From assembly GCA_001692895.1 (NCBI GenBank), contig KV748185.1, positions 1,674,001 to 1,738,000 of the forward strand: a stretch of DNA of 64,000 nt, in the 5' to 3' direction. Positions 3,049 to 52,570 of this stretch are shown piece by piece (within the stretch, counting starts at the first letter, position 1; each line of letters opens with the position of its first letter). Position numbers and translations under genes: made by a program. Source of the stretch: Cenococcum geophilum 1.58 (taxonomy: Eukaryota; Ascomycota; Dothideomycetes; Gloniales; Gloniaceae). A model generated the notes under the pieces. The model worked only from the letters and a program-made list of their open reading frames with translations, made no database searches and was not told the DNA's origin.

Positions 3049-4671
3049 CAGGAGAGCGTTAAGGGTGACTATTTAAAGGCGTCTAGGGTCTAAAGTACCC
3101 TAGATAAACTATCTAAAATAAAAGCTAATTAATAAATCTACTTCAGCGAGCTAATTCTATTTAAGAACTATATTATAACTATTAAATAAGTTGCACTAAA
3201 AGGTCTGCGGGCTAATAGTATAAGGGGTACCTTAGGGGTCGCTAGTAGTAACTATTAGATTATAAGTATCCTAGATTATTATCTAGTTGCTATTAAGGAA
3301 ATATATAATAGGTTTACGTAAATATAGCGCGTAGTATATAGGCAGGTTAAACCTATAGATGGCATCTTAATTAATAAGGTTAATTTAGTACCTATTATTA
3401 TATAAAGCATATAGGCGGACTTCGCCCTAGGGCGTATCTATTACAACGTATACTATAATATATTTCTTTTTTCCCTCTATATTAGGCCCTAGTTATAGTT
3501 AAAAAAGATACGCTACTAGGGCCTTAGGTTTTCCGAAGCCTGAGCTAACTTCTCTTTATTAGCCTGCTTCTAATATTCCTTATAGTGGCCGCCTACGGTC
3601 CTTTAACTTGCCTACGTAGCACTAGCGTTTAAGGGGTCCCCTAAGCTATCTAGCTTTTAGGTAGTCTCCCTGGGAGTTTACTTAAAAAAGCATCGCCCTT
3701 TTTAGGTTCTGTTCCCTAAGCCTAACTCTATAAAGCCTATACTGCAACCACGCTTTATATATAATAATTTACTACTACTACTTACGCGATCTTTTGCAAG
3801 CTTTATAGTATTAAGCAATTGCTTTATACAGCGGATTTTATTAAAGAGGTCTTTAGCGGTTTTTACCTATTAGGCGAAGTTCTAGTAAAAGAGCTCTACT
3901 TATAGGTAGGCTAGGAGACGTAAGAACTAAAAGTTTACCTATTATTTAGGATTAACAAAAGGGGTATATAAGAAGAGGTCCTCTAAGCTACGTATATAGG
4001 CTAAAAAGACATTAAACCTCTGGTTCTCCTTTATAACAGCCGTATAGTATATTATAGCGTTATTAAAGCGTCTTACTATAGGGTTCCTAATCTGGTCTTA
4101 GACTATAGTCTTAAATTTATCCTATAGTAAAGGACCCTTATCCTTAGTGCCTAACCGGCAATAAACTAGTTAGGTAATTGTCTTCTCTTTTATAAGACCT
4201 TTAATAGCCTAGCGCGTACGTCGCTTACAGTTATAGTTAGCGTTATTAACCTTAAATTAGTTCTTAACTGCGGCGATCTACCGGTTAAAATGCTATTAAG
4301 TAGTACCGCTAATATTAGGTAGTAACTTCTTAACTAGGGCGTTAAGATTTATTCGGCGTATACGTTCGCCATATAACTTATACTCTTTACTAAAAAGGTA
4401 ACGGGAGGGCTTTATTAAATTAATAATACTCCGTAAGTTAGCCATTTTCTTAGCTAGCTTATTTAGCTCCTTTATATTAGCGGTATTAGATAGAACGCTA
4501 GTAACCTTACTAATCTCCTATTAAGCCTAGGTATATAAGTTAAACTAGGCTCTAGCGTTTATAGATATCTAATCATTTTAAGATTTAGAAAATAGCTTAG
4601 ATACTACTAGTATGCTTTTAGCGGTTTCGTCTACACTAGATCTTAAGGCGTTCTATAGTTATATCGCTAGT
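3049..4671 (-). mobile_element. Unidentified degenerate tract, possibly internal part of family S element
   Basis: On the minus strand short stretches of about 30-60 codons read open between 4600 and 3500, but I recognise no domain in them. The tract lies between the family A LTR and the B2 end of the Ngaro-like element. On the other side of that element (16545-16866) a minus-strand 5' LTR and leader of family S is found. The simplest reading is that the Ngaro-like element landed inside an S element and this is S internal (gag-like) sequence. That is inference from layout only; an unrelated transposon is possible. Confidence 0.35.
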
Positions 4672-4778
4672 CTATCTCTCGCACGGCACGAATAGGTTAT
4701 AGTCCATTTCAAATATATCGATTATGGGGGGTGCAGGCCTAAACTTCGGAGATCTGGCCTAAATCCTACCCGGTGCCC
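4672..4778 (-). repeat. Split direct repeat B2 (outer 3' end of the Ngaro-like element)
   Basis: 107 bp matching B1 (4978-5135). B1 holds about 50 extra bases in the middle. A spacer of about 80 bp separates it from A2. Confidence 0.8.
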
Positions 4779-4858
4779 CTAATAGGATAGCCCGCCGCTA
4801 GACCTAAATAGGACTATAAGTAACTAATCTAATATACATCGTAAGGGGGGTAGGTAGG

Positions 4859-4977
4859 TGAAAAGAACAACCTATTAAGTGTAGTTGCAAGCAATAATGT
4901 TATTAACCGTATTAAACATCTGGTTAAATACCTAAGTTATAGGGTTTTCGGCCAAGCAATGTATAGACACGTAACAT
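4859..4977 (-). repeat. Split direct repeat A2
   Basis: 119 bp in the same orientation as, and aligning without gaps to, A1 at 16426-16544. The differences I see are C/T or G/A. It directly abuts B1. Confidence 0.85.
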
Positions 4978-5135
4978 CTATCTCTCGCATGGCATGAATA
5001 GGTTATAGTCCATTTCAAATATATTAATTATAGGGGGTATAGGCCTATAGGGCGGGATCTAGGCGATATCCTAGCGTTTATAAGGCTTTTTAGGCCTAAA
5101 CTTTGGAGATCTGGCCTAAATCCTACCCGGTGCCC
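4978..5135 (-). repeat. Split direct repeat B1
   Basis: 158 bp directly abutting A2. Both ends match B2 (4672-4778) in the same orientation. Confidence 0.8.
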
Positions 5136-5306
5136 ACTAGCGAAGCGCCTACTACCTATAAAGAATTAAGTTAAAATGGGAGCGATTTCCGTAGTATAAA
5201 CTATATAATGAAATTAAGACATTATATAAGGAAAGAAGGTAAGGAAGTAAGGAGAATGGGTATATATCGTTAACTTAGTCGCTTAGTTAACAAGTTACCA
5301 TAGTCC

Positions 5307-5536
5307 TAGCAGAATTTAGCAGACTTAGCAGAATTTGGCAGAATTCAGCAGATTTAGTAGAATTTTGCAGAATTCGGCAAACTTGGTAGAATTTAGCAGA
5401 ATTTGGCAGACTTAATAGAACTTAGCAGAGGTTATGGATATTGCCAATATTGCGGGTGTTGCGAATATAGGATAATCTTGCGGTAGTAGGTAGAATATAG
5501 CAAAATGCGGCAGATTGCGGCAGAATGCGGCAGGTA
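5307..5536. repeat. Degenerate 9-10 bp tandem array (GCAGAATTT-type)
   Basis: Units like TAGCAGAATT and GGCAGAATT recur about a dozen times between 5307 and 5430, and again as GCGGCAGA units at 5487-5536. The array lies between the end of the recombinase frame and repeat B1 of the Ngaro-like element. Confidence 0.75.
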
Positions 5537-5649
5537 GCGTGTGTAAGGTATTATGGGGTAGTCCTATAATAGAAAGTATAGAGTCCCTATATTAGGCTTC
5601 CCTAGCTAGTATAGGCATACTCCACTAGAAGTTTAAGTTTAATTAAAGT

Positions 5650-6640
5650 TGTTTAGTTTCTAAGGTATTATAGTAAAGTTTTACCGTATCTAATATCCAT
5701 TAACCTAACTGCGCCGTTTATAACTCTATAAAGCCATAATTATACACATGCTGCGCTGCACCCCTACAGAAGGAGTGGTTAGAGTAGCCGTTAGGCAAAA
5801 TACCGCCAGCAGCTAGGTGGGTTAATAGAATCTTACGTACTACTAGCGCCGAAAATGCTTTATTATTAACGCTAAACAATAGATCTAATAGAGGCCAGGG
5901 GTTACGGTTAAATAACTATATTATCGCGGCTATGGGCATAGATAATCTCCTAGTATAGCGGCGATCTAAATATCGACGCCACTATAGGTTTTATCTATCT
6001 TGCTCCGTTTTAGGTAAAAGACTATTAAATAGCCGTTAGGGGCGATCCTAATATCATTATAAAGGGCCCTCGTAGTGCTAAAGTCCTTAGCTTTCCTATT
6101 TAGGTATATAATCTCTCCTATATATAGGAAACCCGCAAACGCCATTATAAATACTACGTCTATGTTTGTATCCGCCTTACAGGGTTTAAAGGTAACAATC
6201 TTATCTAAAATATCCTTTATAATCGGTAGTTTAGTCTTTTTAGTAGATAGGAATAGTAACATAGCCCCCGCTAAGGCCCTTTTAATAGTATAGTCTTTAA
6301 AGGCGGCAATTAAGTAACCTAGGTCTATATAACGAGATCAGATTACGGAGATATAGTTAAAGAGGGTTTCTAGCTTAATCCTGCCTATTAGAGGGGCGGC
6401 TATACTAAACGCTCGTTAGGCAATCTACTCCCCTAAGTTTATCCTCTTAGCCGGATACGGTAATAAACCGTTTAGGGCTAAAAAGGCCTCCTAGCTCTTA
6501 ATAGCGGAGGAGTAGCCTTTCCTTATATTAGCTACTAAGCTATACTATATAAGTAGTAAAAAGTAATAAGACCCACTAATCTTACTCTAGAAGGTTAGGG
6601 GGGGTTAATTAAACAACTCTAGGTTAACTATAAGAGTTAG
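5650..6640 (-). pseudogene. Tyrosine recombinase relic of the Ngaro-like element
   Basis: Minus-strand remnants show the two signature regions of fungal DIRS/Crypton-type tyrosine recombinases: a motif of the AFAGFL-x-x-GE type near 6150-6120 in a 98-codon open stretch (6262-5966), and a HSF-x-RGAAQ box near 5800-5775 followed by a QLG-x-W stretch near 5720. The enzyme integrates the circular cDNA of the element. It is the last gene before the B1-A2-B2 repeats, as in Ngaro elements. Fossil, broken in several places. Confidence 0.75.
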
Positions 6641-6849
6641 CAGCCACCTAAAGGAGAGATATTATTTTTCTAATAAGAAGCCTTTATTTATCCGGTAAGA
6701 AGCCGTTCTTTATTTAGTAAGAAGCCGTTATTTATCCGGCAAGAAGCCGTTATTTATTTGCCACTTAGGGTATAGTAATAATAATTTCTCGCGGTTAAAT
6801 CGTGAGAGAGTATTAGTAAGCCCATTATTAGCGCTAGAGACCTATATAG

Positions 6850-7690
6850 TTATTATAGTAATATTATTTGTTATTAAGGATATAAGTATCTCTCGGAGTA
6901 ATTGGTTTCCAGAACCTTTTATAATATTATTCTAAATACCACTGTAAGTAACTATATTGTCTATATAAATATAAAGAAACCTATACCACTAGACCGATAA
7001 CCACTTTTTAAATACCTTCGCAATAGTATATATCTCTTTTAGGTTAATATAGTTATCCACCTAGTCTAATAGGGGATAATAGCTAAAGGCCTAGGCCTAG
7101 GGTAGGGAAGCCGCGTAATTAGGCCAGTGGCCATTCTCTCTACTAAAGTAGAAGCCTCTATAGCCTTTAAGTAATAAGGCGTTAGTAAATAAGTAAAACT
7201 ACGGCCTCTCCTTGTTATTAAAAAATAGTATACTGTTACTTAATATAAGAACCTTAAGCTAAAGGTTAAGGTCTTCTTTTAGCTTTAGGGGGAGGCGCTA
7301 GGGCATATTTTTTAATAACCTAGTAGGCTATTTTATTATAAAGTCCTATAAGGAGTAAGAGTACGAGCGCCTAAGGCGGATAACTCTTATACACTATATT
7401 AGGCGGCCCGCTAGTTATTAGGCTTACTATAATAATAGCCAGCCCTTCTAGAGGGCTTTAGTTACCTAATTAATAGCTTTCTATTACTTAGCTAGTAAGA
7501 GTTTTATCTCTATTACTATAGTGTTAATAATGTAACCTAATACTTCCGCCTCTGTACCTTTAATATTCTTTATATTATTTTAGGGTACCCCTAGCTGGTT
7601 AGTAACCAAGAGATATACCTCCCTTAGTAACGGCAGTATAGTTAGACACTTAACCACGAATATAAAATTATTAAGGTAGTGCTTAATAGC
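6850..7690 (-). pseudogene. RNase H and C-terminal reverse transcriptase relic (Ngaro-like element)
   Basis: Minus-strand residues near 7200-6900 resemble the DIRS-type RNase H: a GYRGFYFSRENGHWPN block, then INLKEIYTIAKVFKKW and an IDN(I)VTYSG block. The remaining part of the reverse transcriptase lies at 14616-15150, on the other side of the inserted Gypsy element. Fossil with many breaks. Confidence 0.7.
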
Positions 7691-7695
7691 GGAGT

Positions 7696-7882
7696 TATTA
7701 CGGCACTGACCTAACGCATACTGTTTCATACTGTCTTATACTATTCCCTACTGTTGGCTAGCCCACCACTAGCGACTTAGCGGCCGGCCCTACTATTTAT
7801 ATACAATACCCCCTTTCCACCTTCTTCCCCTCTTTATACCACAACGTAGTTATTTAGTCTACTTTATTGCAGCACTATAACA
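7696..7882 (+). repeat. Family A 5' LTR (187 bp), copy 2
   Basis: Begins TATTACGGCACTGAC and ends CACTATAACA. Same length as the 3' LTR at 14424-14610 and preceded by GGAGT. Confidence 0.92.
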
Positions 7883-7999
7883 GTTTGTGGTATCTTTAAT
7901 TTGCGCCCTATCGCGATCACTGATTCCCCATACCCTAGCCAATTAACCTCCGCCCTAGAGCAATCGCGACCTACACGCGCCTCTACTAAAACCGATACG

Positions 8000-10900
8000 T
8001 CCCCAGCACAGTCCTAGAATAATCCTTAGTTTTTACCTAGCGCCTAGATAGGCGACACTAACGACGCCGAAATAGCCGAAACCTAAAACCCCTATAACGT
8101 TTTCGTAGACCTATTTATAGAGATATACCCTAATATCGCGTGGACAATCTACCGCTCCCTACTGTACCCTAAGACCTTTGAGCCTAGTAAAGCTTACCTT
8201 ACCCTTATTAACTATACCAATAAGTTCCTTAATAATATTAAAGTAGGACTATAGTGTATATATAACATAAACACCGCCAATAAGAAAGCTAATGAAAACC
8301 TTAATGCCCTTATCGCTTCCTAGATAGAAACTATTAACTCCTAGGCAGAGACTATTACCGTTCTAAAATAATTAACCCCTATAATAANNGTAGTAACCTA
8401 NNAGAAAAAACGGAGATCTAAAGACCCGCCAATATTTAGCGGAAAAGGCACCCCGCTAGAATAATAAGCTAATTTTAAGACCTAGCATATTAAGATTAAG
8501 GGAGTCTTTAACTAGGACTAGGACTACTTTAATACAGTTTAGTCCTAGATCCTTTATATCTCGGATATGCTAGAGGATAAGGCCTATAAGTTTATTAAGT
8601 AGGGCCTAGAGCTTATATACGAGAACCCAAATAATATATCTGCGTGGAAATGGCCTACCAAGGAAGATATGCTTAAAGACCTTACTGCCTACTATGAGGT
8701 CCTTAATATAACCTAGGTTATAAAGAACAAGCTTAACTATTTCCTCTAAGGTAAGCGTAATTACTGGTCCTAAAAGGGAGAGCTTAATAAGCTAATAGTC
8801 CGCGCTAAGAAGACAGACAAATAGAAGGTGGACCTACTCTAAAAGTTTATCTCTCTAAAAATAGAAGAGCTGGTACTTGGACTGGCCTATAAAATTAATA
8901 ACAGCGACTATATAGGTTGGAGCAAGCAGATGGATGTGTTTGCTAAAAACCTCGCGAACTATACACACCGAGCCAACCTTAAGAAGAACGCTAACTACTG
9001 CCTACCTGCCTAAGCCCCTGCCCCTATGTTAACCCTGACCCTAGCAGTAACTGGAGAACCTATAAACCTTAATGGAATTTTAGACACGGAGCGTAAGCGC
9101 CGCGTTAATAATAGACTGTGCCTTGCCTATGGCCTACCTGGCCACTGGAAGGATACCTATAACCCTGCTAAGACAGTAAACCTAGTCCTAATACTACCCC
9201 GTTAAATAACGCGAATAAATAACCGCGGATGTGGCGACCGTAAAGTCTATTATAGACGCGGCGACCGTGGAGCCTATTATGGCCATGGCGGACGACCCCC
9301 CCCCTTTAACCCTATAGCTTAGTTACTCTAAACCATGCCCTATATAGGAGCCTAACCCGTTAATAACGCCTAGTATTAGCGACTTCGCGCTAGCGAATAC
9401 GAACACAGCCACGTTATTAGTGAGGTATTGTCTTTTTATACCCCGACCAAAATAGAGATAGACACCGCCAGCTAGACGGACACTAGACCGCCCCGCTAAG
9501 ACAGCCCTATACCCTAGTCGTTAAAAGGTAGACCCTTAGACTAAGTCGCGCTTAAGGGTCTAAACCATATAAGGAGGAAGATGAGAAGATTAGGTCCCTG
9601 TTACTAGATTAATTAGTCCTTTCTATTAGTAAACTGCCACTTAATCTTAGATTAGTAAATAGTAATAAGAAATTAATTCTTATTTAAACCTAACTCTCCT
9701 TATTATATAACCTATACCCCTAAGTTTATATTAATATAGTAAGCCTAGTGGACTCCGGTAGTACTGTAATGGCATTTACCAACGCAGAGTCTATTATAAG
9801 AAAGTATAACGTTATAACTAAGAAGCTGCTGGTACCTAGGCTACTGCGCCTCGCAGATGGTATCCTAACTTTGTTTATTACGGACTACTTTACTACCCGA
9901 ATATTAATTGGCCTCTATACTAAAGCTATGCTCTTTTTTATTACTAAACTCTCGCCCGTTACCCTAATTATCCTAGGTATACCCTGGCTTTAGAAGCATA
10001 AGCCCCGTCCCAGCTTTAGGAAACTTAAGATCCGCTTTAACTTAGACTACTACTCTAGGCACTNCCTNCNGTNGGGGATAGCCGACGTTANTAGGGACGC
10101 CCTATNTGGACACTTAGCACTACTAAGCCTAGTGCCTAGGACTATATATAAAGCCCTAATAGTAGAAGACGTTCCTAATAAAGGGGAGCCCATATAGCTG
10201 TAAAGAAACGAGATAGTGGAAGACTAGACTAACCTAGTACTTAAGACTAAAATAACGGGCCAGCCAGCCCTGCTAAGACTAAAAAAGAAGGTCCGCTTCG
10301 CGCCGCTATTATTAAGAAACCAACCCTAACCTAAGTACTATTTAAACCCTAGCCGCCTAGCCCGATACCTAGAACTAAGCCATATACCATATGCGCACAC
10401 TATAGCTCGCGTTATAGTAAGGACTGGCTATGGAACTACCGAGACCCGGATAATAGAAACCGCGCCACCGTAACGCCCAACCTCATACCTGTCTCCCGCG
10501 CGTACCATATAAGGCCGCCGCCTCATTTCCGCCCCCTTAGGCTAACTAAGCCGTGCTAGCCTAGCCATAGCACCGGAGAGCTAGACATGCCCTAACCTAG
10601 ACGATATTAAATACACCTATGCTGTTAATTTTACCTAGTTCTGTAAGTAAAAAGACGTAAAGGTAATAAGGATTTATATAGCGGAGCTAGTAGAACTGGT
10701 TAAATAAGATAAACACTAATAGCTGCTTAAAGAGCTACCTATAGGCCTAATAGAAGTACCGAACCTATTAGAAAGGTCTTTCTACCGGCTAGTAAAAGGC
10801 GACTATATAATAAAGGAAGCCTATAAAGCGCTCCCCCCCTATTTCTATAACTTTCTTAAGACAAATTTAAAAACTAAACCCAAGCTTTTACGTCGGAAGA

Positions 10901-13900
10901 TAGTTAACACCAATGTTAAAAAATTCCTAAAAGGCAAACCAGGATTAACCCGTGAAGATATTCTACAACGCCTACTAAAGGAGTTTAGTAAATATATTAA
11001 GCACTTCCTCCCTAAGAATATAGATAAGCTGCCCCCTTACCAACCATAGGACTATAAAATTAAGATTACCCCTAGAAACTAGGCCCCGTACTATAAAAAT
11101 AGACCACTCTTACCTGCTAAACTTAGGTGTGTAAAAAAGTGGATTAATAAGATGCTGGATAAGGGTTTTATCCGCGAATTAACCTTACTAGCTACCGCAC
11201 TACTTCTCCTTGCTGCTAAGCCTGGCGGCGGTATATAAATCTACTATAACTACTAAGGCCTAAATACAGTTACTATTAAGAATTAATACCCACTGCTACT
11301 AATCCGCGAGATACTTAACGCACTTTGTGGCGCTAAGTACTTTACTAAACTTAATATAATTACTGCGTTTAACCGGATCCGGATTGCGGAGGGCTATAAG
11401 TAGCTTATAGTATTTATTACCCGGTTCGGACTCTATAAGATACTAATTATACTATTCGGCCTCTATAACGTACCCGCTATGTTTTAGAACTATATTAACT
11501 ATATTCTATACAACGCCCTTAATAACTACTGCACTGTCTACTTTAATAACGTCCTTGTCTTTTCTAAAACACGCGCTAAGCACACTAAGTATATAAATAA
11601 AGTCATCTAAAGACTCGGCAATGCTGGACTTTAGATTAATATTAATAAGTTTAAGTTCTACTCTACTAAAACAAAATACCTCGGCTTAATTATCTCGACT
11701 AATAGTATAACTATGGACCCTAAAAAGATATAGGCCTTATAGAAATAGAAGGACCCGATATTAATTAAAGAACTATAATAATTTCTCGGCTTTGCGAACT
11801 TCTACTAACGATTTATCTAAGGCTACTCTGCTATTGCTATACCTATAATAAAACTTCTAAAGAAGGATATTGGATGGCTATGGGGACTAGAACAAGCTAA
11901 ATCGTTTAAGGCCCTTAAGGGAGCCTTTACTTCAGCACTAGTACTAGTATACTATAACTATATAAAGAAAACAGTAGTAGAGACAGATATATCGAATTGG
12001 GCTTCCAGCGGAGTCCTTTCCCAGTATAATAACGACGGAAAATTAAAACTGGTTGCATTCTTCTCTGCAAAGTACTCTATGCCGGAATATAACTATAAGA
12101 TCTACAATAAAGAACTCCTAGCTATTATTAAGGCTTTAGAGGAATAGCGTCTTAAGCTGTAAGGGACTAAGGAGCTGTTTGAAATTATTACCGACTATAA
12201 GAACCTATAGATGTTTATAACTACTAAGTAGCTAAACTAGCGCTAAGTCTAGTAGGCAGAGTTTCTTTTATAGTTTAACTTTATAATTATATATAGACCC
12301 GGCAGTAAAGCCACGCTCCCTAACGCCCTAAGCTGGCTACTAGGAATAAGGCCTAAGGACGCTAATAATAAACGCCTCCGCTACTAAGCCTAAGTTGTTA
12401 TACCGCCTTAGAAAGTTAACCCTATAATCTTAGAAGAATTACTATATAAGTCCCATAACTCTAATGACGTAGAGTTTATAGCCGCTCTAGACCCCAAAAT
12501 AGCCGAAAAGTCACTGGATAAGTTAATCTAGCTAGAATATTAGGAGAATGAACTCGTAAGAGATATAATAGCAGCTCTGCGTGATTGGAAAGCTCGCCGT
12601 TGGCCAAAGAAAATTAGGAAATTACTCTATTGCGATAAGTTAGAATATAGTATCGTTAACGGATAGATCTACTTCTGCTAACGTCTCTTTATCCCTAACG
12701 CCCTAGACCTCTACCTAGAAGTTACCTATTACTCTTATAGCAGCGGCCCCGCTAGTTACCCCAGCTGGGTTAAGACTCTTAACCTCTTAAACTAAATATA
12801 CTGGTGGCTAGGAATCTCCTAGTTTATAGCTACCTTTGTTAAAGACTGTGCCCTATACTTTTGCACTAAGACCCCCTATTCTGCCCTACCCGGTTTCCTA
12901 AAGCTACTAAAATTACCCGCCTGCCCATAAACCAATATCTTAATTAACTATATTATAACGCTGCCAGTATACTAACGCTATAGCAAGGTATACGAATATA
13001 TCCTTATTATTGTGGACCGCCTAATTAAAATATAATACCTTGTTCTAGTAACAGGACTCTTAATAGAGGAGTTAGTTAATAGCTTTGTTAATAACGTATA
13101 TAAGCTCTACGGTGTATTAAGCACGATTATCTCTAATCGCGGCATATAATTTGTTAGCGACTTCTAGCAATAACTAAGTAAACGCCTTAAAATAATCTTG
13201 TAACTAAGCTTAGCCTAGTACCTAGAAACGGACGGCTAAACTAAAATTATTAACGCCGCCATAAATAAATACCTTTGTGCTTTTATTAGCTTTATATAGA
13301 ACAACTAGGTTAACTACCTACTGCTCACCAAGTTTGCTATAAATAACTAAGTCAATAAGAGCATAGGCATCTCCCCGTTTTTTGCAAACTATGGCTTTAA
13401 CCCTCGCCTTAGAATTAAGCCTGCTGGCCCTTACCTACTAATACTATTAGTATAAGTAAAGAAGAAGTTCTTCTACGCAGACTCTGTGGCTAACCACTTT
13501 AAGCGGATATTAACACAGCTTAAGGCCCTAGCCTGGATTTTATAGTAACGCTATAAAGATAATGCTAATACCCGTAGGGATAAGAGCGCGTTATTCTACG
13601 AAGGTAATATAGTTATGGTTAGCTTAGAAAATATAAAAATAAATAGACCTAAGAAGAAATAGGACGATAAATAGGACGGCCCGTACCCTATACTCGCAGT
13701 ATACTAAGGGGTAGTCGTAGTAGACCTCCCGGACCACATCTAAGTAAATAAATCCTTTTATATATCTAAGGTCCGCCTCTAGGCTGCTAAAGAGATCCTT
13801 AGCTAAGCAAATATTAATACTATAGAGCGCCGTAATGTATAAGGATGAGTAGCAGAGAGAGATAATAACGGTAACATAGAAGACAAATGGGAGTTTAAGA

Positions 13901-14070
13901 AAATCCTCAATGTATATAACGAAGACCCCCAGGGCCTAACTTATAAGATTAAATGGAAATATCACAAGGATACAACCTAGTAGCTAGAGGAAGACCTAAA
14001 GGGTTGTAAACAAGCTGTATAGCGCTTTTATAAGCAACACCTTAAGAAGCTAGGACCCCCAGACTAGGTA
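8000..14070 (+). pseudogene. gag-pol relic of family A copy 2
   Basis: Domains in order: gag (about 8000-9560) with a zinc knuckle of the C-x2-C-x4-H-x4-C type near 9115-9160; pepsin-like protease with a DSG motif and a closing LGIPWL block (9748-9993); reverse transcriptase (about 11080-11700); RNase H with a KLVAFFSAKYS block (about 11985-12250); integrase with a VDRL-x-K block near 13010; and a chromodomain (about 13880-14060) with YKIKWKY and LEEDLKG blocks. The chromodomain predicts targeting to heterochromatin. Fossil; no domain is intact. Confidence 0.88.
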
Positions 14071-14423
14071 CAAGATAAGGAAAAGTTACGCTAAGGTCGC
14101 GGCCAACCACCGCATTAAAATTTGTGGTGGTTGAGATGTTATAGAACTTCGACCGGCGGTTAAAGTTGTCTAATTAGCCAAATTCTCGCCAAGAAACGCT
14201 ATACGGACCGATTTGGGTGGCGGTATAGAGTTCTGCCGACCTTACTCACTAAACTAACCAATTAGGATTTTCTATGCCTAGTATGGAAAATCGCCATTAG
14301 CTTGGTTAAGGGCGGTAAGCGGAACTAATATCTTTGCGGTAGAAAATAGGCAACCCCATACACTGCCTATTTTTAAGTTATTTATTCGGTTTGGGGACTA
14401 AACCGTCTAGGGGAGAGGAGTAC

Positions 14424-14610
14424 TGTTACGGCACTAACCTAACGCATACTGTTTTATACTGTCTCGTACTATTCCCTACTATTGGCTAGCCCACCACTAG
14501 CGACTTGGCGGCCGGCCCTACTATTTATATACAATACCCCCTTTCCACCTTCTTCCCCTCTTCATACCACAACGTAGTTATTCAGTTTACTTCATTACAG
14601 CACTGTAATA
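14424..14610 (+). repeat. Family A 3' LTR (187 bp), copy 2
   Basis: Begins TGTTACGGCACTAAC, ends CACTGTAATA, and is followed by the target duplication GGAGT. Confidence 0.92.
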
Positions 14611-14615
14611 GGAGT

Positions 14616-15150
14616 TAATCTATTATGCTAGGATCTAGTAAAGACCTTTGGCGAATAAGTTAAAAAGGAATAGGGCTGTTTGTAAGCTAAATAGTAGATA
14701 GCATTTAACGTATATAACTCCCTTTTAGATAAAGCCGAGTAGGTAACGCAACCGCACTAAAACGGGCACCATCCGGAAGGCATCTTTAATGTCTCGTTTA
14801 ACTAGGTAGCAGCCTCTACTAGCTATAATTACGTATACTAGTATAGTCTCTATCTAGGTATAGTGTAGTGCTGCCTAAGCTAGGTTAATAGAGTCATTAA
14901 CTAAGAAGCCCTTAGGTGAAGAGAGGTCGTAAATACGGCGGAAGCCGCCATCTACCTTAGGTACTAGGCCTAGGGGTAAGGTAACTATAGAGTTGGTGGC
15001 CTATATATGGCCTAGGGCTAGGTTAGTAATAATCTTTTTAGAGATAAGGTCTTCGTTATCGTGTAAAAAGAGGTGGTTTTTGTAGATATTAGGTAGTATA
15101 GGTAATAAGGGACCTATCTCCGCCCTATAGGTAAGGATGCCTTATAAAAT
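14616..15150 (-). pseudogene. Reverse transcriptase relic (N-terminal part) of the Ngaro-like element
   Basis: On the minus strand near 15000-14890 the residues read GLVPKVDGGFRRIYDLSSP and then VNDSI. That is the conserved LVPK-x-DGG-x-RRI-x-DLS-P motif of DIRS/Ngaro reverse transcriptases, distinct from the Gypsy type. The domain is cut by the inserted family A element. Fossil. Confidence 0.75.
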
Positions 15151-15399
15151 TGCTAGAAGATTTCTAGGGTACCTATAAAGGAGCGTGCTCCAAGCAAGAG
15201 GTCTTAAAGGTGATGGTAAGTTAGCCAGAAAAGTCGTTTATAAGTAAGTTTCGAAAAGAGGTACTAAATTAGGCCTGCCTTAGAGCCTTAGCGTCTATAG
15301 TAGGTCTATCTAAATAGTTAAATCTAGGAAGATGTCTTTATCTACTATTAAATCCTAGGTCTAACTACTTACGGCGGTAAGCTACCTAGGGCATAACTT

Positions 15400-16374
15400 T
15401 AATGGGTAGTTTTTGTCGCATTTAGAGCATGCGTAGCAGTAATAATATGGATCTTCTCTATAAGCCTGCTGGTTGTTCTAGCTATAATAGGGCTTACTAG
15501 AGGGAAGAGAAAGGGAGGTATTCTTTCGCGATCTTTTTAATGCTATACCACGGACTTCAAGTCCCTAGCTCTATACCTTTATATTGGCTGCCCGGCAGTA
15601 TAGGGCCTCAAACTAGATAGGTATGTCCCAGTTACTAGGCTTAAGCTAATTGCAATCTATAACATACCTATAGTAGTTAAGCGCGAGGTCTAGGATAGAG
15701 GTCCAGTTATAGGTTACGGAGTAGTCGCGGATCTTATTTATCTAGAGCAACATTCTTATATAGAGGTTAGTTGGGCATATACAGAGAGTGCTTATAATCA
15801 CTACGTAGTTCGTAAATCTAGTAAACTAAACCTCCTTATTCTTATAGACCTTACGGCTAGTAGTAGATCTCTTTAAAACAAGCTTTCCGTTTTCAATAGT
15901 AGCTATATTAAAAAGGTCTAGGCGGCCAGAGTGTACCTATAGACGGGCTAGGTTCTCTAGGCGGAAGGATCCTTTCTATATAGTATAAAGGTCTCTTCTA
16001 GCTAGGCTAGGGAGGTCGAGCTTAAGCGTGCCTAAGCCTTCTAGTAGGTTATAGGACTTACCTAGTTTATCTACCTTAGTAGTAGAGGTGTACTCTAGTG
16101 AAGCAGGCTGCTTTAGAGCGGCTAGCCTTGCCTAGTAAAACTCCTCTTCCTATTCCGTCTTTTAGATCCGTGCCTATTCCTCTTACTCTCTTTTTCGGAT
16201 CTCTAGGTTATAGAGTTATTAGGCCCTCTCGTCTTATTTCCTAGCTCTTTCTTCTTCTAAAGATAAAACTATAGTATATTCGGTAGATGGGATGGTCGTA
16301 GATAAGGAGGTAGATAATAGGGCGGTTAAGCGAGGAGTTTTCAAACAGGTGCTATTGGCTAGAAAGTCGGTCAT
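15400..16374 (-). pseudogene. gag-like first ORF relic of the Ngaro-like element
   Basis: A minus-strand frame starts with ATG at 16374, about 50 bp inside repeat A1. It reads for long stretches to about 15500 with few interruptions, including a charged helical part near 16250-16100. A C-x2-C pair lies near 15450. The position between A1 and the reverse transcriptase fits the gag-like protein of Ngaro elements; I see no diagnostic motif beyond that. Fossil. Confidence 0.55.
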
Positions 16375-16425
16375 GGGCCTTAATAATTATCGCCACTATA
16401 AACACTAATCGCAAGCAATCTATGA

Positions 16426-16544
16426 TGAAAAGAACGACCTATTGAGTGCAGTTGCAAGCGATAATATTATTAACCGTGTTGAACATCTGGTTAAATACCT
16501 AAGTTGCAGGGTTTTCGGCCAAGCAATGTATAGACACATAACAT
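16426..16544 (-). repeat. Split direct repeat A1 (outer 5' end of the Ngaro-like element)
   Basis: 119 bp, same orientation as A2 (4859-4977). It forms the 5' end of the minus-strand element. Confidence 0.85.
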
Positions 16545-16866
16545 ATATTACTATCGGGTACAGGCGTCGGTTTTCTTTTTAGAGGTATTATAGAAAAAAT
16601 TTAACCGGCTATCCTCCTAAGGGGATTGGTAAGGATTTAAATATAAGGTAAGAATATAGATAGGGAGTCTAATAATAAAACAATAGGTATATTATATAAA
16701 CAGAGATGAATCCTTAAGGGAAAAGGAGGAGTCTATATGCGAGGTAGGAAGGGTTTTTCCTAGGTATGTATAGAGCATATACCTTATAGGCGAGTTACTC
16801 CTAGGTTGCCCTAGGGTCGCCTATACCTTGCGGCTATATAACTATCTACTTAGGTTTTACCTAACA
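16545..16866 (-). mobile_element. 5' LTR and leader of a family S element
   Basis: A 225-bp LTR (16642-16866) in minus orientation is followed downstream, on the minus strand, by TTTAAATCCTTACC, which sits where a primer-binding site is expected, and about 85 bp of leader. The leader then meets repeat A1. The rest of the element may continue at 4671-3049. The right flank is 16867-16871, CGTAG; no matching duplication is found within the window. Fossil. Confidence 0.6.
16642..16866 (-). repeat. Family S LTR (225 bp), RIP-mutated copy
   Basis: Reverse complement aligns over its full length with the solo LTR at 28823-29047, the differences being mostly C to T or G to A in this copy. Confidence 0.8.
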
Positions 16867-18444
16867 CGTAGCGTTAGTATTTTTTAGAGAAAATTAGAAT
16901 ATTATTAAGGTAGACTATATAGAAGACATCTACTAGTTCTAATAAGGCTTAATTAATATAGCCCTAAAAGGTCACTAGTTTATTAGTTAGCCTAAAAGGT
17001 AAAACTAAATACTTAAAGTGACCGTAATGTGTACTGAACGCCGTCTTCTACTTATTATCTCAACGAATACAAAGGCGGTAGTACGTATTTATTAAGTCTA
17101 ACATAGTAAAGATTTTAGAACCTATAAAGTGGTCTAGGGTCTTACTAATTAATAGTAGTATAAGACGATTCTTAATCATTACCTTATTAAGGCCTCTATA
17201 GTTTATATAGAGCCATATCTTTCTATCCTTTTTAGGTATAAATAAAATAGGTACCCCTATAAAACTAGTACTTAGTTAGATCTAGCCTTTAGCTAAAGTG
17301 TTATTTAAATACTTTTTTAGTACCTCTAGCTCCTTAACTAAGAGGTTATAAAGTGGTCTATATAGGACCTTTTATCCCTCTTCTAGGACAATAGCATAGT
17401 CGCTCTAGTAGTATTAGGGTAGCTTCCCTACTTCCTTATATAAGAAGATATTACTAACTTCTTTTAACTATAGGGGAAGGACTAGTAAGTTACTATTATC
17501 TTACTTACTAGGCATTAATCTAGTAATTACTAGGGTAAAGACCCTAAATTCTATCTAGAGAGACTCTATAAAACCCTTAGGGGTTTATAATAACAGGGAT
17601 AAACTATTTAGCTTTTATCGCCACGTCTTCACCTTATAGTTAATAAGAAGTCGGGCCTTCTTTAACCCTAGCATACCTAAGGTAACAGTGGGGGATATAT
17701 TAGCTATTCTATAGTAAATAAAAGTTACTTCCCTAATTCTACTCTAGCTGTTCTTTATTCTTAGTAGTAACTTATAGGCTTTATAGCAATATACCTAAGT
17801 TTTATTTAACTAGGAGTAAATAGGTAATTTTATATCTAGTATCTTAAAGTTACACTCTATTGCGAATCGCTAAGTAATTATATTTACTTTAGTGCCAAGA
17901 TTAAGTAATACTAAGGTCTCCTTCTAGGTCTACTTAGATAGAACTTCTTTTAGAATAGTAATAGCTTCCTTATAATTTAGTAATAGCTTATACCCTATAG
18001 GTATAAGGGGCTCTAAAGGCGCCTACCTTTTCCTGGAGTAGAGATAGCGCTTATATTATTAGGAGGCGGCTACTATTACTATTTCTGCTCTAGGAACTAT
18101 CGCCACTAATATCCTAGCTTACTACAATTTTTATAGTTCCCTTTAGGTTAGGTTAAACCCCTAGCGGTATTACTTCGCCTTGCTATTATATCGATAGCGG
18201 TAGTTTTAAAGTCCGCTTTCCCTAAGTTACCTAATAGGGTGGTCTTTATATTTAAGTTTGCGACGCGCCTATTACCTCTAGCCTATAGGGCGCTCGCGCT
18301 CTTTTAGTTTTCCTCTAATAGGGTAGCTAGGGAAACTAGCTAATTTTAAGTTTATAGAAATTCCTAATAGTTAGTAATAGTAAGCCGTAGCTCTAGCTAT
18401 AGCTTCGCGAATAGGTATATTATTAGATACTTTGCATTATAAAG
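16867..18444 (-). mobile_element. Gypsy fragment, family J (gag end, protease, reverse transcriptase)
   Basis: The minus strand reads, from right to left, a zinc-knuckle-like gag end near 18120, a protease region (about 17950-17650) and a Gypsy reverse transcriptase (about 17400-16960) with KTAF, THYGHFKYLVLPF and LTN blocks. It stops at the family S LTR on the left and at a plus-strand family F fragment on the right. No LTR is seen. Fossil with many breaks. Confidence 0.7.
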
Positions 18445-27961: not shown

Positions 27962-28178
27962 TATAAGGGGATCTTGTAGACAGGGGGCTATAAGGACACG
28001 ATTGTGGAATAGGATAGATTGGTAAGAGAGACGAATCCTTAAGGAGGTAAGGCCTCTAGGATTGTGGAGACTATATACTACGGGCACGTGCCTCTAGTAT
28101 ATGACCGGCGACCATCTAAGGGGCGTTTAGGGGTTGTCCTAAGGGCAACCTAAGGTATCCGCAATAATATCCCTTATA
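27962..28178 (-). repeat. Family H 3' LTR (217 bp), copy 1
   Basis: Aligns without gaps to 36882-37098, and also to 53883-54098. Ends carry the inverted TGTAAGGG / CCCTTACA signature. Confidence 0.9.
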
Positions 28179-30700
28179 TTGCCCCCCCCCTTCTTACGGT
28201 TAGCCCCTAATTACTATTACCTTACAGTAGGGAGATTATAAGGGCTCGTCCCGGAAGAGGTTCGGAGAGATATTAGAAAGGTATTAGTATGCTACTATAT
28301 ATTATCTATCTATCTAACCCCTACTTTAAACTCCTAAAAAACCTTAATAAGGAAAAAACATAACTGGAGAAAAGATGTAAGGATTGCTAGGAGACCTATT
28401 AGAAGCCTATTAGAAGCATGCCGGTAACTACCTAGGCTAATATAGGGATTTTTATACAACTCTGCTTCCAAGCCTTTATGCTAGTCTATAATTAATTATA
28501 AGTATTATAGGCAATTTAGTGTTCTAGTATAGTTCCGTAGAACCTTTTAGTATAGGATTTAACGTACAGAGCCTTAGCTTGCCGTTGTTTTTAACTATTA
28601 AGATATAATCTATAATCGTTTTATATAATCCTCTACGTCACTAACGCATTATTCCCATATCTACCCTTAGGCTATTAGATACGGTTAAGGTATTAATTAG
28701 TTAATTAAGGAGACTTATCTCCTAAGATTTAGTATATATGCTTTTAAATCTAATAGTCCTATGCCGTATATTTGGCGTAGCTCTACTGCCTAGCAAATAG
28801 GGACATTTCGCGATAGTAATTGTGTCTGGTAAAACCTGAGTAGATAGTTATATAGCCACAAGGTATAGGCGACCCTGGGGCAACCCAGGGGTGACTCGCC
28901 CGTGAGGCACGTGCAGAGCACGTGCCTAGGGAAAACCCTTTCTACCTCGCACACAGACTCCTCCTTTTCCCTTAAGGATTCGTCTCTATCTATACAATAT
29001 ACCTATTGTTCTATCATTGGACTCCCTATCCACATCCTCACCTCACAAATTGTAGCTATTATATAATTATTAAGAACGTCTATAACATTGTTCTTTAATA
29101 CTATAGTATTGTTTTAGGTCTAATTTAACCTATATACGTCTTTAATTTAACGTCTTAACTGCCTTCCCCCGGCCGCGTAGTTAGTTTTTGTAAGGAAGTA
29201 ATAGTTAAATAACTTATACGCGTGTTTCCTTCCTTTTAAATAGCGCTATTATAATGGAGTTATATTAATAAGGTTGCGGCTATTTACTAGAAGGGTATTA
29301 GAAGGTAAAGTATAAAGACACCTTGCTTATTAAGCTGCTCGTTTTCTTAAACACCTCACTTCTTGCTATTAACCATCGTCTAATTTTGGACGTATCTTCA
29401 ATATATCATTAAGATTTTCTTCTTTTCTATTATCAATTTAATATACCTCTTTATTCTCCTACTAACTGCTCTTCTAAGTAGATTCCACAGCGTATCCTAG
29501 CCCTACCTTTGCATATAGAACCCTAACCTCCGCTAACTTGTAACTAGTGCTGGTCCTACCTAAATAATTTTACCTATATGTCTTTAAAAGACTAGAAATC
29601 TAATAATAGGATTCTAGAGGCTTATAATAAGACGCACTGCGTTAAAATCTAATACCTTTAGCCCTTATAATTAATGCATGCGTACTAAGAGCGGCAGTTA
29701 TATTAAGGTAAGTTTTTTTATTCTTAATAGATTTCCGTTGCTAACTTTAAGCTTTAATAGCCTAGGCCTAAGTGGCAATAATCCTTTAATGTCCTTAACT
29801 ACTACATTACCCAGGCTTTGTCTTATTCTAGCGCTAATGCTAAACATCTTAGTCGCATTTAAGACTATACTATAGCCATCTACACCGCCTATAATTCTTA
29901 GTAAGCTAGCTAGTAACGCCTAATGCAAGAGTAAGGTTAGTATACTAAGGATAGGGTGCGGGATAGGGGTAATAAGAAAAAGGTCGCTATCTACTACAGG
30001 AAGGAGTTTGCGTATACGCGTTAAGTTTCGAAAGAGTATAATATAATGCAGTATTAGGTAGGTTACCCTTTAGGTACCTAGTAGATAGGTAACTAATAGT
30101 TACTATAGCAAGGTCTTAATAGTTCTAGACTATGCTAGCCAGCTAATATCTCTATTTATTCTAGGCTTAAGCGTATCTTTATTAACTATAAGCTTACGCC
30201 GCAAGAGCTTTATTAGTATTAGTTTAAATCTAATGTTAGTATTAAGCGTTTAAGAGTCTCTGCTCTAGCTATACCTCATCGTCCTACCCCTGTTTTTATA
30301 CCTACTTATACACCTACTAAGGCATCTAGATCCCATTCTCGTTAGCTATCACTTAGTGGCCCAATAGATACTAATCCTACTCCTAATAATAATAAGGCGT
30401 AGTAGCTTTTCAGATTAGGCATTTATGGTTTAGACTTTTAAGATTCGTTCTTATATATAATAGCAATTGAGGACCTTAATTAGGTGCTCGGGAAGGCCTT
30501 ATAAGGCTTTTAGAAAGGGCTTAGAAGCCCTAAAAATAATATTCCTAGTATAGATTAATAAATAGGAATGCAATTCTAGCAAAATGCCCTATTAACTCTA
30601 TGCTATATATGTAAAAAGGCTAAGGACCCGTCCTGCCTTAGGCCGTAGCCCTATCCTTATAGTTTCTAGAGCCTGTCCGTTCTATATCCAATTTAACCTA
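28179..30700 (-). other. Long 3' tract of family H with plus-strand open stretches
   Basis: Between the chromodomain and the 3' LTR lie about 2.3 kb (excluding the solo LTR) without pol domains. Co-linear sequence is present in copy 2 (54099-55277 and 63862-64000), so it belongs to the element. On the plus strand, antisense to pol, relatively long open stretches occur at 29678-29875 and about 30170-30330. I recognise no domain in them. Confidence 0.55.
28823..29047 (+). repeat. Solo LTR of family S (225 bp) with target duplication
   Basis: Begins TGTCTGGTAAAACC and ends CACCTCACA. It is flanked by AATTG on both sides (28818-28822 and 29048-29052), and family H copy 2 lacks it at the same place (about 54751-54766). 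A single LTR with duplication is left when the two LTRs of an element recombine. Unlike its host, this LTR keeps many CpG and CpA sites, for example CACGTGCAGAGCACGTGCC at 28908-28930. Confidence 0.9.
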
Positions 30701-33700
30701 TTTACTCTTTTCGCGAGCTTTCTTTATAGGTCGCGATAACACCGTAATATTAGAGCGCTTTTTACGACTTATAGATTATAGACCTTAATCCCAATATTCT
30801 TTTAGAATACCTTCGTAATAATTAAGGTAATCCTCTAGTTCCTATATAGAGTCCTTAGCGGGCTAGCCTAGCCATTTAACTTTAAATTAAAGCTTGTTCT
30901 TAATAGACTTATAGCGTAGTATAGCTTTAACCTTATACCGCTCGCCCACTGCCTTAGGGTGTTTAATTAGGCCTAGACGGAAGTTTTTTTCCAGCGGTAG
31001 TCTATACTATAGCTTTAGTAGGTTTATATAAAATACTAAATACATATAGGCTATAGATAGGGATAGCTAGAGATAATAGGCTAGCTTACTAATTCGTTCC
31101 TTAACTTAGAAGGGACCTAGGTATCTTATATTAAGCTTCTTTAATAGCTAATAGGTCTTAATATTCGTTAAACATAATAGAACCTTATTGCCTACTCCGA
31201 AATGCTTATCCTAGTGCTTGCGGTTATACTAAAGTCTCTACTACTCTTAGGCATCTTACAGGCTCTACTTTATATACTTTTATTACTTCTCCTATTCCTA
31301 AAGGTATCCTTATACTCTCTAGTAGATGTCCTTAGACTTCCCGGTAGGATCCTATAACTAATTATGCGGCCTTAGCTAGTAATTATTAGGTATACTATTA
31401 AACCCAAATAGTTAAACGCCATAGGCAATCTAGATTGATGTATACTTATACGATATATATTGCTTTAAATTATAAGCGTACTCTGTGTACGGAAGTAGCT
31501 CGCACTAGTTGTTTTACTAGTAGTTTAAATATATCCATAGGTAAGACTCTAGTTCCTAGTTCTAGCGTTCCATTTACCCATCCGTTTATAGGTAGAAAGC
31601 CGTACTATACTAGTAGTCTATCTTTAAATAGAAGTATAGGTCCGACTAGTATTGGCTTATAAAGACGCTGCCCCTATTAGTAATAATAGAGTGTGGCTAA
31701 TCTACTTTAAGAAAGCATTTCTCCTTAATTAGGTTAGCGAGCTCTTATATATTAATCGTCTTATTAACAGGAAGATATTAGACGTACTTTAAAAACCTAT
31801 TAATAAGTATAAGGACCGAATCGTATGTTTGTCCTTAGCTATCTTTAAATAGCGGGAGATCCATAATAAAGTCTATGGCGTAATGTTGCTATAGCTTACT
31901 AGCGGGGGGAACTAATTTAAGTAGACCCCATAGCTTGTGCCTGCGGATCTTATATACTTAACACTTCTTATAATAGCTAATATACTCCTTTACTTCCTAA
32001 TTAAGCCTTAGCTAATAGTATTTGCGCTAAAGTAATTCCACTGTCTTTACTTAACTATAGTGGCCGCCTAAAGGATTATCATAATTCTTTATAAGAATCT
32101 TCTGTTATAAATTTACTTCTTATAGCACCTAAACCTTACCACCTCTATATAGTAGGCCCATTAGGTCTAGTTCCTAATAGTAGCGCCTAGCAGCTTCCTT
32201 TCCGTTACGTTTCCGGTCTACTTCCGCATTAAGAATAGTATAAGAAGCGTCCCTCCATTACGCCTTACAGATAAGATCCGTTAACCTTTTAGATAGTTCC
32301 TAGGTAAAAGCTATTTTATTCTATACTGCTCTAAGTATAAGACTAGATAGTACTATAGATCTTACAACTCTTTAATACGCGTATATTAGGAAGGCCGCTA
32401 CGAGGTTAAAGTCCTTTAGTTATTACAGGGCTCTGAGTTCCGATTGCTCTATAGCTTCGCTATTTATTTAAGGGGATAGCTTAGTAATTAGAGATAGTAT
32501 ATTACTATATTCTAAGAATATATTGGGGACGTCCTATCTAGGTATATTTGGACCCTTATCGGCAACAGACCGGGTACCAGCTAGAACGTCAGTAGAAACC
32601 AATAGGGCTTATACTACCTAAGACTCGGTATATAGAGCTATAGGTGCTTAAGCATCCTACACCTAGAGCTTATTTTATAATGTAGGGAGTAAAATATCTA
32701 TTATCTATTTTCCTTCTCCCGTTTTAAAGCCATTAGCATAATCTGGCCGTCGTAACAGTCTATTAGCAGGGTTATTTTCCCCTAGCTTATATTTAATCTT
32801 AAAATTAAATCGCATAAGCTCCTCTACTTATCTAGCTTATTAAGGTATAAGCTCCTTTATAGTTATAAAGTAGTGTAAATTATAGTAATCTAAGAGTATA
32901 TAAGTGGTATAGCTTGCGTGCTTAAGGTAGTGTCACCACTGTTTAAAGCAGTTAATTATAGCTAGCAGTTCCTTATCGTGGGTATAATACCTAACTTTAG
33001 GTCCCTAGAATTTTCTGCTATAAAATGCTACTAGTCTCTAATAGAGCTGGGTAGCGTCTAGATGCCTATTGGGTTGTAGTAGGATACCAGCAAGGGCAAA
33101 ATTCAATACATTAGTAATTATTATTAATAGCTAATTTAGGTTAAAATGCCGCAGCAATAAAGCTTCTATAAACTTTACGTAAAGTTCCTAAAAGGCCTTT
33201 TAAACCTTTCCGGGCTATAACTATAGCTTATACTATTTAGTTAGTCCCTTTTTAGTTTTCTTCTTTACCGCCTTTAAGCTTTTTGCTCCTTAGGTCGGGT
33301 CTTAAAAAGCTTCTATAATATAGTTGGATAGGTATTAGGCAACGTCTAAGTAGTTATAAATAAAGCGCCTATAGAAATTGGCAAAGCCTAAAAACACTTA
33401 AATATCCTAGTAGCTCTCTAGCTCCGGCCACTCCTAGATTATCTACACCTATACTAGGTCTATAACTACACCTATAGGCGTTATAATATAACCCAGGAAC
33501 TTAACCTACTTAGTATTAAAGATATACTTTAACGCCTTAGCGTAGAGGCCCTAATTATCTAAACGTTCCAGCACTTCGCGGACGTATTACTCGTGTTAAT
33601 CCTTATCTTCTAAGTAGATTAAAATATTATCTAAATAGATAACGTATATGCGGTTAACTAGTCCCCCTAAGGCTCTATAAATATACGATTGGAATATCGC

Positions 33701-51494: not shown

Positions 51495-52083
51495 TTCTGA
51501 TCAAGATACGTAGATATTGATAGTTAGAAGTTTATTGCCAGAATTGATATGTAGGGTTAACGTTATGTTGGGCACCTCTGTTTGTAATACTCAGGCTGAT
51601 TTGAGCGGCACCAGATATTAACATAGACGTTAGCACCATGAAGAAAAATTGGTTGAAAATACTGATGTATATGGGCACTGGTAAGACGAAGAGATCGTAC
51701 TGCTTGCCAAGGTTACTATTCATTTCAGCTAGAGCCTGGACTTTTCAGCACGGACAAATGCAGTGGTGACCGGTTCGGCGGAGTGGTCAGTGAGAGCATG
51801 GTGGGATAGCTGAAAGATGTGATGAGTGTGGCACACTCTGAATACCCGCAAAGTGGACTGGTGTCATTCATCGCAGTTATGCATGATGGTAAGTATTGTA
51901 CATTGTCGGTGCGTTGCACCGGTTCCTTGCAGAGCATTTTACACCAATAAGAAAGCCGGTTTGTATAGAAAACATGAACCTTCTTAATTTTCCTCCTTTT
52001 TCATTTGCCGCAAAAGTGTATTAAAAACAAGTCACATGCCGCCCAACCCCCCTGCAACACACCGACAATGTACAATACTTACG
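51495..52083. other. Upstream region of the 480-codon gene
   Basis: About 590 bp of ordinary composition that should hold the promoter of the minus-strand gene. I see no clear TATA box and no further supported gene. Minus-strand frames of 63 and 70 codons (51723-51532 and 51937-51725) are too weak to call. Confidence 0.5.
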
Positions 52084-52380
52084 CCGGATACCATAGCACA
52101 GGTCAGCTCCGTGAGAAAGTATGCAGACTGCATGACTCCTGCACCGACAGCACAACAATCACACCGCTTGACTGGTACCGGACCGGATACCATAGCACAG
52201 GTCAGCTCCGTGAGAAAGTATGCAGACTGCATGACTCCTGCACCGACAGCACAACAATCACACCGCTTGACTGGTACCGGACCGGATACCATAGCACAGG
52301 TCAGCTCCGTGAGAAAGTATGCAGACTGCATGACTCCTGCACCGACAGCACAACAATCACACCGCTTGACTGGTACCGGA
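52084..52380. repeat. Three tandem 99-bp units
   Basis: The unit starting CCGGATACCATAGCACAGGT occurs at 52084, 52183 and 52282. The copies appear identical base for base, so the array is recent or kept uniform by conversion. As 99 is a multiple of three, several frames on both strands read through it, which makes protein-like frames by chance. Confidence 0.95.
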
Positions 52381-52570
52381 CCCAGGTAAAGATGCTATGT
52401 ACACCACCCCGGCGCATCTCGCTGTAAGTGCCTTATTAGCGCTGCTGATCATTCGGAGAACGCCGTCTGTTACTAGGTAAAATGGGGTTAGTCTCCGACG
52501 GATTAGCACGCTTAGAAAGACGCCCATATTAAAATCAAATAAAGCTTTTCAAATCAAGCGATTGTGAGGG
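52381..52570. other. Right edge of the gene island
   Basis: Ordinary-composition DNA without a supported gene. At about 52560-52580 the sequence passes into TpA-rich RIP-mutated DNA. Confidence 0.6.

Follow-up and report, generated by a model that had tools for sequence, protein, structure and literature searches.

A RIP-inactivated retrotransposon, very probably of Ngaro type, and its insertion sites in the ascomycete Cenococcum geophilum

PAT and DIRS1 elements are tyrosine recombinase (YR) retrotransposons in which an internal region regenerates the termini; both have a methyltransferase domain, and DIRS1 has inverted repeats. Ngaro elements of fungi are described as carrying A-pol-B-A-B repeats, a reverse transcriptase (RT), RNase H and a YR, with no methyltransferase (Muszewska et al. 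2013, PMC3783388; this and the other papers are drawn on here for part of their text). The passages of that 177-genome survey drawn on here list Ngaro in Basidiomycota plus one truncated, repeat-less copy in the ascomycete Neosartorya fischeri (PMC3783388). One complete Ngaro (RYN) family of 23 kb in total is reported for Zymoseptoria tritici (PMC4502367), repeats labelled Ngaro for three of four Sporothrix genomes (PMC9281073) and DIRS for Pleurotus (PMC4905642), and the word Ngaro occurs in two other ascomycete genome papers (PMC7601665, PMC7181583). In Cafeteria burkhardae, Ngaro shows the layout A1-[ORFs]-B1A2B2 (ORF, open reading frame) together with isolated solo AB repeats, whose proposed origin is recombination of 5' and 3' repeats (PMC8547959). 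Here, we describe an element of this layout in 64,000 nucleotides of the ascomycete Cenococcum geophilum 1.58 (assembly GCA_001692895.1, contig KV748185.1, positions 1,674,001 to 1,738,000), henceforth termed the window. With high confidence, we read it as a copy of a Ngaro-type YR retrotransposon that was inactivated by repeat-induced point mutation (RIP) and later interrupted by a Ty3/Gypsy element.

The outer element lies on the minus strand, from 16543 down to 4671, in the order A1, coding part, B1, A2, B2, and measures about 4.95 kb without its insert (Table 1). A repeat search returned the direct-repeat pairs 4859-4981/16426-16548 (91%), 4671-4741/4977-5047 (90%) and 4735-4778/5092-5135 (98%), which were then shortened to match the junctions of other copies. 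The 10 differences between the 118-bp repeats A1 and A2 are all transitions, and B2 is about 51 bp shorter than in the other complete copies read, where it has 159 bp. An earlier, sequence-only reading had given repeat lengths of 119, 158 and 107 bp and element ends at 4672 and 16544, each right to 1 bp; the order that it proposed, with B1 and A2 directly abutting, is confirmed. Between the RNase H-like part and the recombinase, a 22/44-bp tandem repeat occupies 6662-6757.

The same arrangement recurs across the assembly (177.19 Mb, 162 contigs). A DNA query taken from the 5' part of the outer element found 40 matches among the best 40 of 111 candidates, with elements on C12, C49 and C86 each counting as two pieces; 20 elements were fetched with their flanks for reading. 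Seventeen of the 20 have the order A1-ORFs-B1-A2-B2, two (L032 and L050) are A1-ORFs-B, and L035 is broken by an insertion within the fetched stretch. The genome was also mapped with RIP-tolerant patterns, of 34 places for A and 35 for B and with up to one mismatch, which found 75 A and 76 B sites and none with the reversed controls. Grouped by strand and distance, these sites form 41 clusters, one of them with two elements, i.e., 42 loci, a lower bound as the patterns would miss more damaged copies. The A-B-A-B pattern is present at 33 elements, and C41 (L037) and C51 (L048), which have no pattern sites, are complete by BLAST. The other genome copies that the sequence-only reading had proposed to look for are thus present, with the same repeat order at 35 of 42 loci (18 read, namely 17 fetched copies and the window copy, and 17 judged from A/B marker spacing), a recurrence that is not chance. 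The remaining seven loci comprise two A-ORFs-B copies, three solo A-B units, one B-A-B and one lone A. No rotated form A-B-A-ORFs-B occurs among the 41 clusters, the B-A-B and lone-A clusters being judged from markers. It seems that only one B|A joint is used for full-length integration, although the internal and terminal joints match in sequence. Two loci with four markers each, L024 (C26:1685825, minus strand) and L025 (C26:1687078, plus strand), stand in opposite orientation with their A1 ends about 1.2 kb apart.

The junctions are uniform among copies. Where B1 meets A2, 17 of the 18 four-repeat copies read have GATAGA|T(G/A)T(C/T)A, and L049 has GATAAA; RIP-type changes apart, the joint reads GATAGA|TGTCACG. 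Of 20 elements, 18 end in GATAGA at B2 (or at a single B) and two, L037 and L041, end in AATAGA. The internal joint is identical to the B2 end fused to the A1 start in 17 of 18 copies; the remaining copy carries a single RIP-type change. To the left of A1, the bases are mostly TATA, not TAGA. Distinct left flanks are available for 31 insertions, namely 28 of 30 loci from the DNA search (L030 has no A1 and the A1 of L025 itself was unmatched) and three solo units. In 19 of the 31, TANA precedes A1, against a background of 5.5% in the flanks, and in 15 TATA does, against 2.7%. The binomial tail for TANA, with L028 also omitted for the resemblance of its flank to that of L027, is 3e-17. The element's own end is TAGA, and target and joint thus have T-A-N-A in common, a match expected if a tyrosine recombinase exchanges the strands.

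Empty sites define the ends of the element. Comparing the joined flanks of the 20 elements with the genome gave 52 matches in the best 40 of 7379 candidates for paralogous empty sites, and nine fetched places align across the junction, gapless, with the joined flanks of L041, L043, L044, L046 and L048, i.e., 5 of the 20 insertions. As far as seen, insertion neither duplicates nor removes target sequence. The empty sites of these five insertions place the A and B repeats at the element ends; genome copies with internal repeats had been named as an observation that would speak against the sequence-only reading. Such paralogous sites resolve the integration reaction at the level of single bases.

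By analogy with Ngaro, PAT and DIRS elements, the element RNA would lack both termini, and the internal B1|A2 joint would supply the lost terminal sequence to give a DNA circle with a B|A joint. The recombinase may then exchange the TAGA of this circle joint with a short, similar genomic site (TANA). The expected integration product is TANA|A1...B2(TAGA)| without target duplication.

The coding region is heavily damaged. The window copy's coding part gave no Pfam match that counts in the correct frames (best 0.14), because it is too damaged. RVT_1 was matched in 11 of 12 other copies scanned (best 1.5e-6), and the first member's score of 23.8 bits is under the curated cut-off of 29.6. Against PDB sequences, an RT profile gave two weak matches, at E 0.1 and 0.22, whose chains are labelled protease/RT/RNase H. 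At the catalytic box, the aligned copies have YLNN or YLND, which would be a RIP-type change of YLDD. Downstream, the RNase H motifs LFT(D/N)ALLLKGYRGFYF and TNTLSRF were identified by eye. The recombinase was followed in one frame through 355 codons in 17 copies (of 20; L034, L035 and L044 omitted), where each copy contains 8 to 17 stops; that of the window copy has a frameshift near 5963. The motifs FLRIGEI, SK(T/I)DKT, NHSFRRG, LGRW and KLYY are in register across copies, and no copy keeps all of them. L037 and Cre align over most of the length, and their HxxR, W and Y boxes coincide; 3 of 200 shuffles reach this score. A profile built from six YRs of phages and E. coli matched the recombinase at E 0.015 and again lined up the HxxR, W and Y boxes with those of Cre (RT control 0.52). 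A gag-like piece appeared in Pfam in one of ten members, at 0.52 only (zf-CW). Searching viral contigs with the RT and YR alignments gave 271 and 596 pattern matches, none of which was confirmed.

Several results weigh against these assignments. RNase H was found by Pfam in none of eight copies, the lysine strand of Cre is unaligned with SKxDKT in the L037 register, and the E 0.015 match has an hhalign probability of 3%. A XerC/XerD/FimB/FimE profile (0.86) did no better than its control (0.58). Mean pairwise z scores over the 17 copies are modest and uneven (FimB 2.9, lambda Int 2.1, Cre 1.5, XerD 1.3, XerC 0.1; unrelated-protein controls 0.3 and -0.4). Pfam gave no integrase match for the recombinase, its profile found no PDB sequence, and PF00589 had no match in the whole genome. 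We regard the recombinase as probably YR-type on motif order, context and integration pattern, not on alignment scores. The interior motifs of the sequence-only reading therefore stand unequally: the RT by RVT_1 in other copies, the RNase H as a motif only, and the recombinase by motifs and their register with no Pfam match. Likewise, its "complete" holds for the structure of the element and fails for the coding region.

These features fit the proposed Ngaro/PAT assignment, with its repeat order, abutting B1 and A2, and RT and recombinase-type motifs, and Ngaro is the likelier of the two. An element of PAT or DIRS type, which would use the same circle mechanism but carry a methyltransferase in either case or, for DIRS, inverted terminal repeats, is improbable. 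PAT, too, has split direct repeats, and a methyltransferase could have decayed past detection by Pfam; yet no pair of inverted repeats of at least 40 nt occurs in 4000-17500, and in L045 the recombinase follows the RNase H-like part after about 260 bp, too little room for a methyltransferase. Pfam gave no match there, methyltransferase or other, whether in L045 (three frames) or in eight copies (coding frame), which is weak evidence in decayed copies, as Pfam also misses the YR. Cryptons have a YR and insert at short matching sites, so that a Crypton-like or other YR DNA transposon with a captured RT might yield a similar site preference. The split direct repeats, the succession of RT, RNase H-like part and recombinase in one frame, and a second family with the same layout (see below) make this origin highly implausible. 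The element is thus best classed as Ngaro, in which case its RT would belong to the DIRS/Ngaro clade.

The Ty3/Gypsy element interrupted this Ngaro-type copy later, inside the RT gene. A long direct-repeat pair (7698-7883/14426-14611, 93%) corresponds to its long terminal repeats (LTRs) of 187 bp, which have TG..CA-type ends, RIP-type changes apart, and 14 differences, all transitions. Its plus strand matches RT_RNaseH_2 (2.1e-23), RT_RNaseH (3.4e-21) and RVT_1 (2.8e-16), together with Integrase_H2C2 (7.6e-4) and SH3_Tf2-1 (0.0057), both under their Pfam cut-offs; the minus frames gave no Pfam match at 0.1. The two halves of the window copy join in uninterrupted copies with query ends overlapping by 6 nt, as expected for a Gypsy insertion with a short duplication. 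The strong matches within 7696-14610 might suggest an ordinary Gypsy element throughout, with the RT signal coming from the nested element and the A and B repeats being chance or satellite. We give this almost no weight: the Gypsy matches sit on the plus strand of the nested element, uninterrupted outer copies have RVT_1 and four repeats, and their empty sites lack a duplication. The outer element also fails the traits of Ty3/Gypsy, as its repeats are split rather than LTRs and no target duplication is present. Gypsy matches instead of DIRS-type ones, which were to count against the sequence-only reading, were found only on the plus strand of the nested element. Elsewhere in the window, a second Ty3/Gypsy coding region (28001-36700, minus strand) has RVT_1 (8.1e-22), RNase H, SH3_Tf2-1 and Integrase_H2C2 in one frame.

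Table 1. Features of the outer element and of its nested insertion, in window positions.
Feature	Position	Strand	Evidence or remark
A1 repeat, 118 bp, 5' end of outer element	16426..16543	-	starts TGTTATG; left flank ends TAATATA
5' coding part: gag-like segment, then N-terminal RT (GLVPKVDGGFRRIYDLS, YLVKRDIKDAFRMVP)	14616..16425	-	many RIP-type stops; RVT_1 in 11/12 other copies
GGAGT target duplication, right copy	14611..14615		flanks nested Gypsy element
Ty3/Gypsy LTR element inside RT gene of outer element	7696..14610	+	Pfam domains; LTRs 7696-7882 and 14424-14610
GGAGT target duplication, left copy	7691..7695		flanks nested Gypsy element
Remainder of RT (catalytic box YLNN) and RNase H-like part (LFTNALLLKGYRGFYF ... 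TNTLSRF)	6798..7690	-	motifs; bounds approximate
Putative tyrosine recombinase segment	5660..6540	-	open frame 5966-6337, frameshift right after, then HSFCRGAA ... LGxW ... KLYY; bounds approximate
Degenerate decamer tandem repeats (GCAGAAT type on + strand), between recombinase and B1	5307..5533	-	sequence
B1 repeat, 159 bp, ends GAGAGATAGA	4977..5135	-	repeat search, trimmed
A2 repeat, 118 bp, starts TGTTACG, abuts B1	4859..4976	-	repeat search, trimmed
B2 repeat, 108 bp, 3' end of element, ends GAGAGATAGA	4671..4778	-	159 bp in other copies

The differences among copies of the Ngaro-type element carry the signature of RIP. When the 5' coding part of the window copy is aligned with those of the 20 fetched elements (21 copies), 557 of 574 variable columns show pure transitions. 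Variable versus invariant columns number 140/1 for CpA, 93/2 for TpG and 49/6 for CpG (G after C, 60/3), compared with 83/110 for CpT and 46/91 for CpC. Transversions amount to 0.0016 per site as a pairwise mean. We infer that the family probably spread within a short time and underwent RIP afterwards.

Short derivatives bear on the order of these events. The solo A-B units L060, L061 and L062 are 357 bp each, lie at different sites and end like full elements; L060 and L062 differ by one N only, and L061 differs from L060 at eight positions. At 91 transition-variable columns, they have RIP-state letters at 4 (L060), 5 (L061) and 4 (L062), whereas 15 full copies (L038, L048 and the window copy omitted) have 9 to 51 in their A2-B2 units. 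The chance of the solos being the three lowest of 18 is 1 in 816 for a comparison made after the copies were seen, and one complete copy, L040, is lightly affected too (9 of 91). The joined solo flanks have relatives for all three units (best 40 of 366 candidates), of which seven were fetched; the junctions are gapless against empty sites in L060 and L062, which show no target duplication, and L061 shows a 2-bp gap with adjacent changes. These data favour insertion of the solos as a short unit, or deletion before RIP. Excision of the solos from old elements already marked by RIP was also considered and judged less likely, as they are nearly RIP-free. This near absence of RIP suggests that short circles may insert directly. 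The two A-ORFs-B copies fit a reciprocal resolution product and, equally, a B1 x B2 deletion. Tentatively, and with less than even confidence, we propose that the recombinase acts between the joints of the circle (B2|A1 and B1|A2), giving an A2-B2 mini-circle and an A1-ORFs-B1 circle, each of which would integrate by the same site rule. This, and not later homologous deletion, could be the direct source of the three solos and the two A-ORFs-B copies, with the 357-bp units nearly RIP-free because they are short. Cafeteria burkhardae has the same layout and solos (PMC8547959, cited for part of its text), whereas here RIP state and empty sites inform the origin of the solos.

More distant relatives are present in the same genome. 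A tblastn search with the L037 recombinase gave, among the best 132 of 302 candidates, 40 matches at 73-100% identity and 92 at 39-50%. The former represent the first family, in part as two pieces of one copy, and the latter have four or more stops each. One of the 92, L075 (on C8, 49%), belongs to a second family with A1 at 401-518, B1 at 4621-4782, A2 at 4777-4894 and B2 at 5044-5205, and has an RVT_1 match of 2.9e-4, under the cut-off. Its left end is GCTATATA|TACTAGCG, its joint AATAGATAGA|TACTAGCG and its right end GATAGATAGAT; layout, TATA site and GATAGA end are common to L075 and the first family. A degenerate GCAGAAT decamer array precedes B1 in both families (L075 4423-4608; window 5307-5533), in opposite orientation relative to the element.

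Ngaro has been held almost absent from Ascomycota (PMC3783388, in the parts cited). Here, a single ascomycete holds a burst of structurally complete copies, 35 of them with four repeats, together with a second family and 92 places with a distant recombinase. The Zymoseptoria tritici Ngaro, likened to ours by description only, is likewise a complete YR retrotransposon in an ascomycete (PMC4502367, in part). The claim of the sequence-only reading that such copies are rarely described in RIP-active ascomycetes thus holds in direction, although a complete family had already been reported in that species. Among the titles and abstract openings listed, with subscription papers mostly outside the search, we found no ascomycete Ngaro burst with empty sites and a RIP history. 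As RIP marks the long copies, the genome serves as a clock for the order of insertion, RIP and rearrangement.

HET domains have at least 150 matches in the genome (best 150 of 439 candidates), with none in 14 prokaryote controls, and a HET expansion of this kind is characteristic of Pezizomycotina. Elsewhere in the window, a GC-rich island (about 50% GC, no RIP signature) contains a broken gene at 48046-49852 (plus strand). Its first segment has a match to PF11917 DUF3435 (E 5.9e-4, under the cut-off), which we take to be the family of Starship captain recombinases. The same island holds a 482-residue open frame at 50052-51500 (minus strand) with no convincing Pfam family (best 0.012), and three near-identical tandem units at 51978-52427, seen in the translations.

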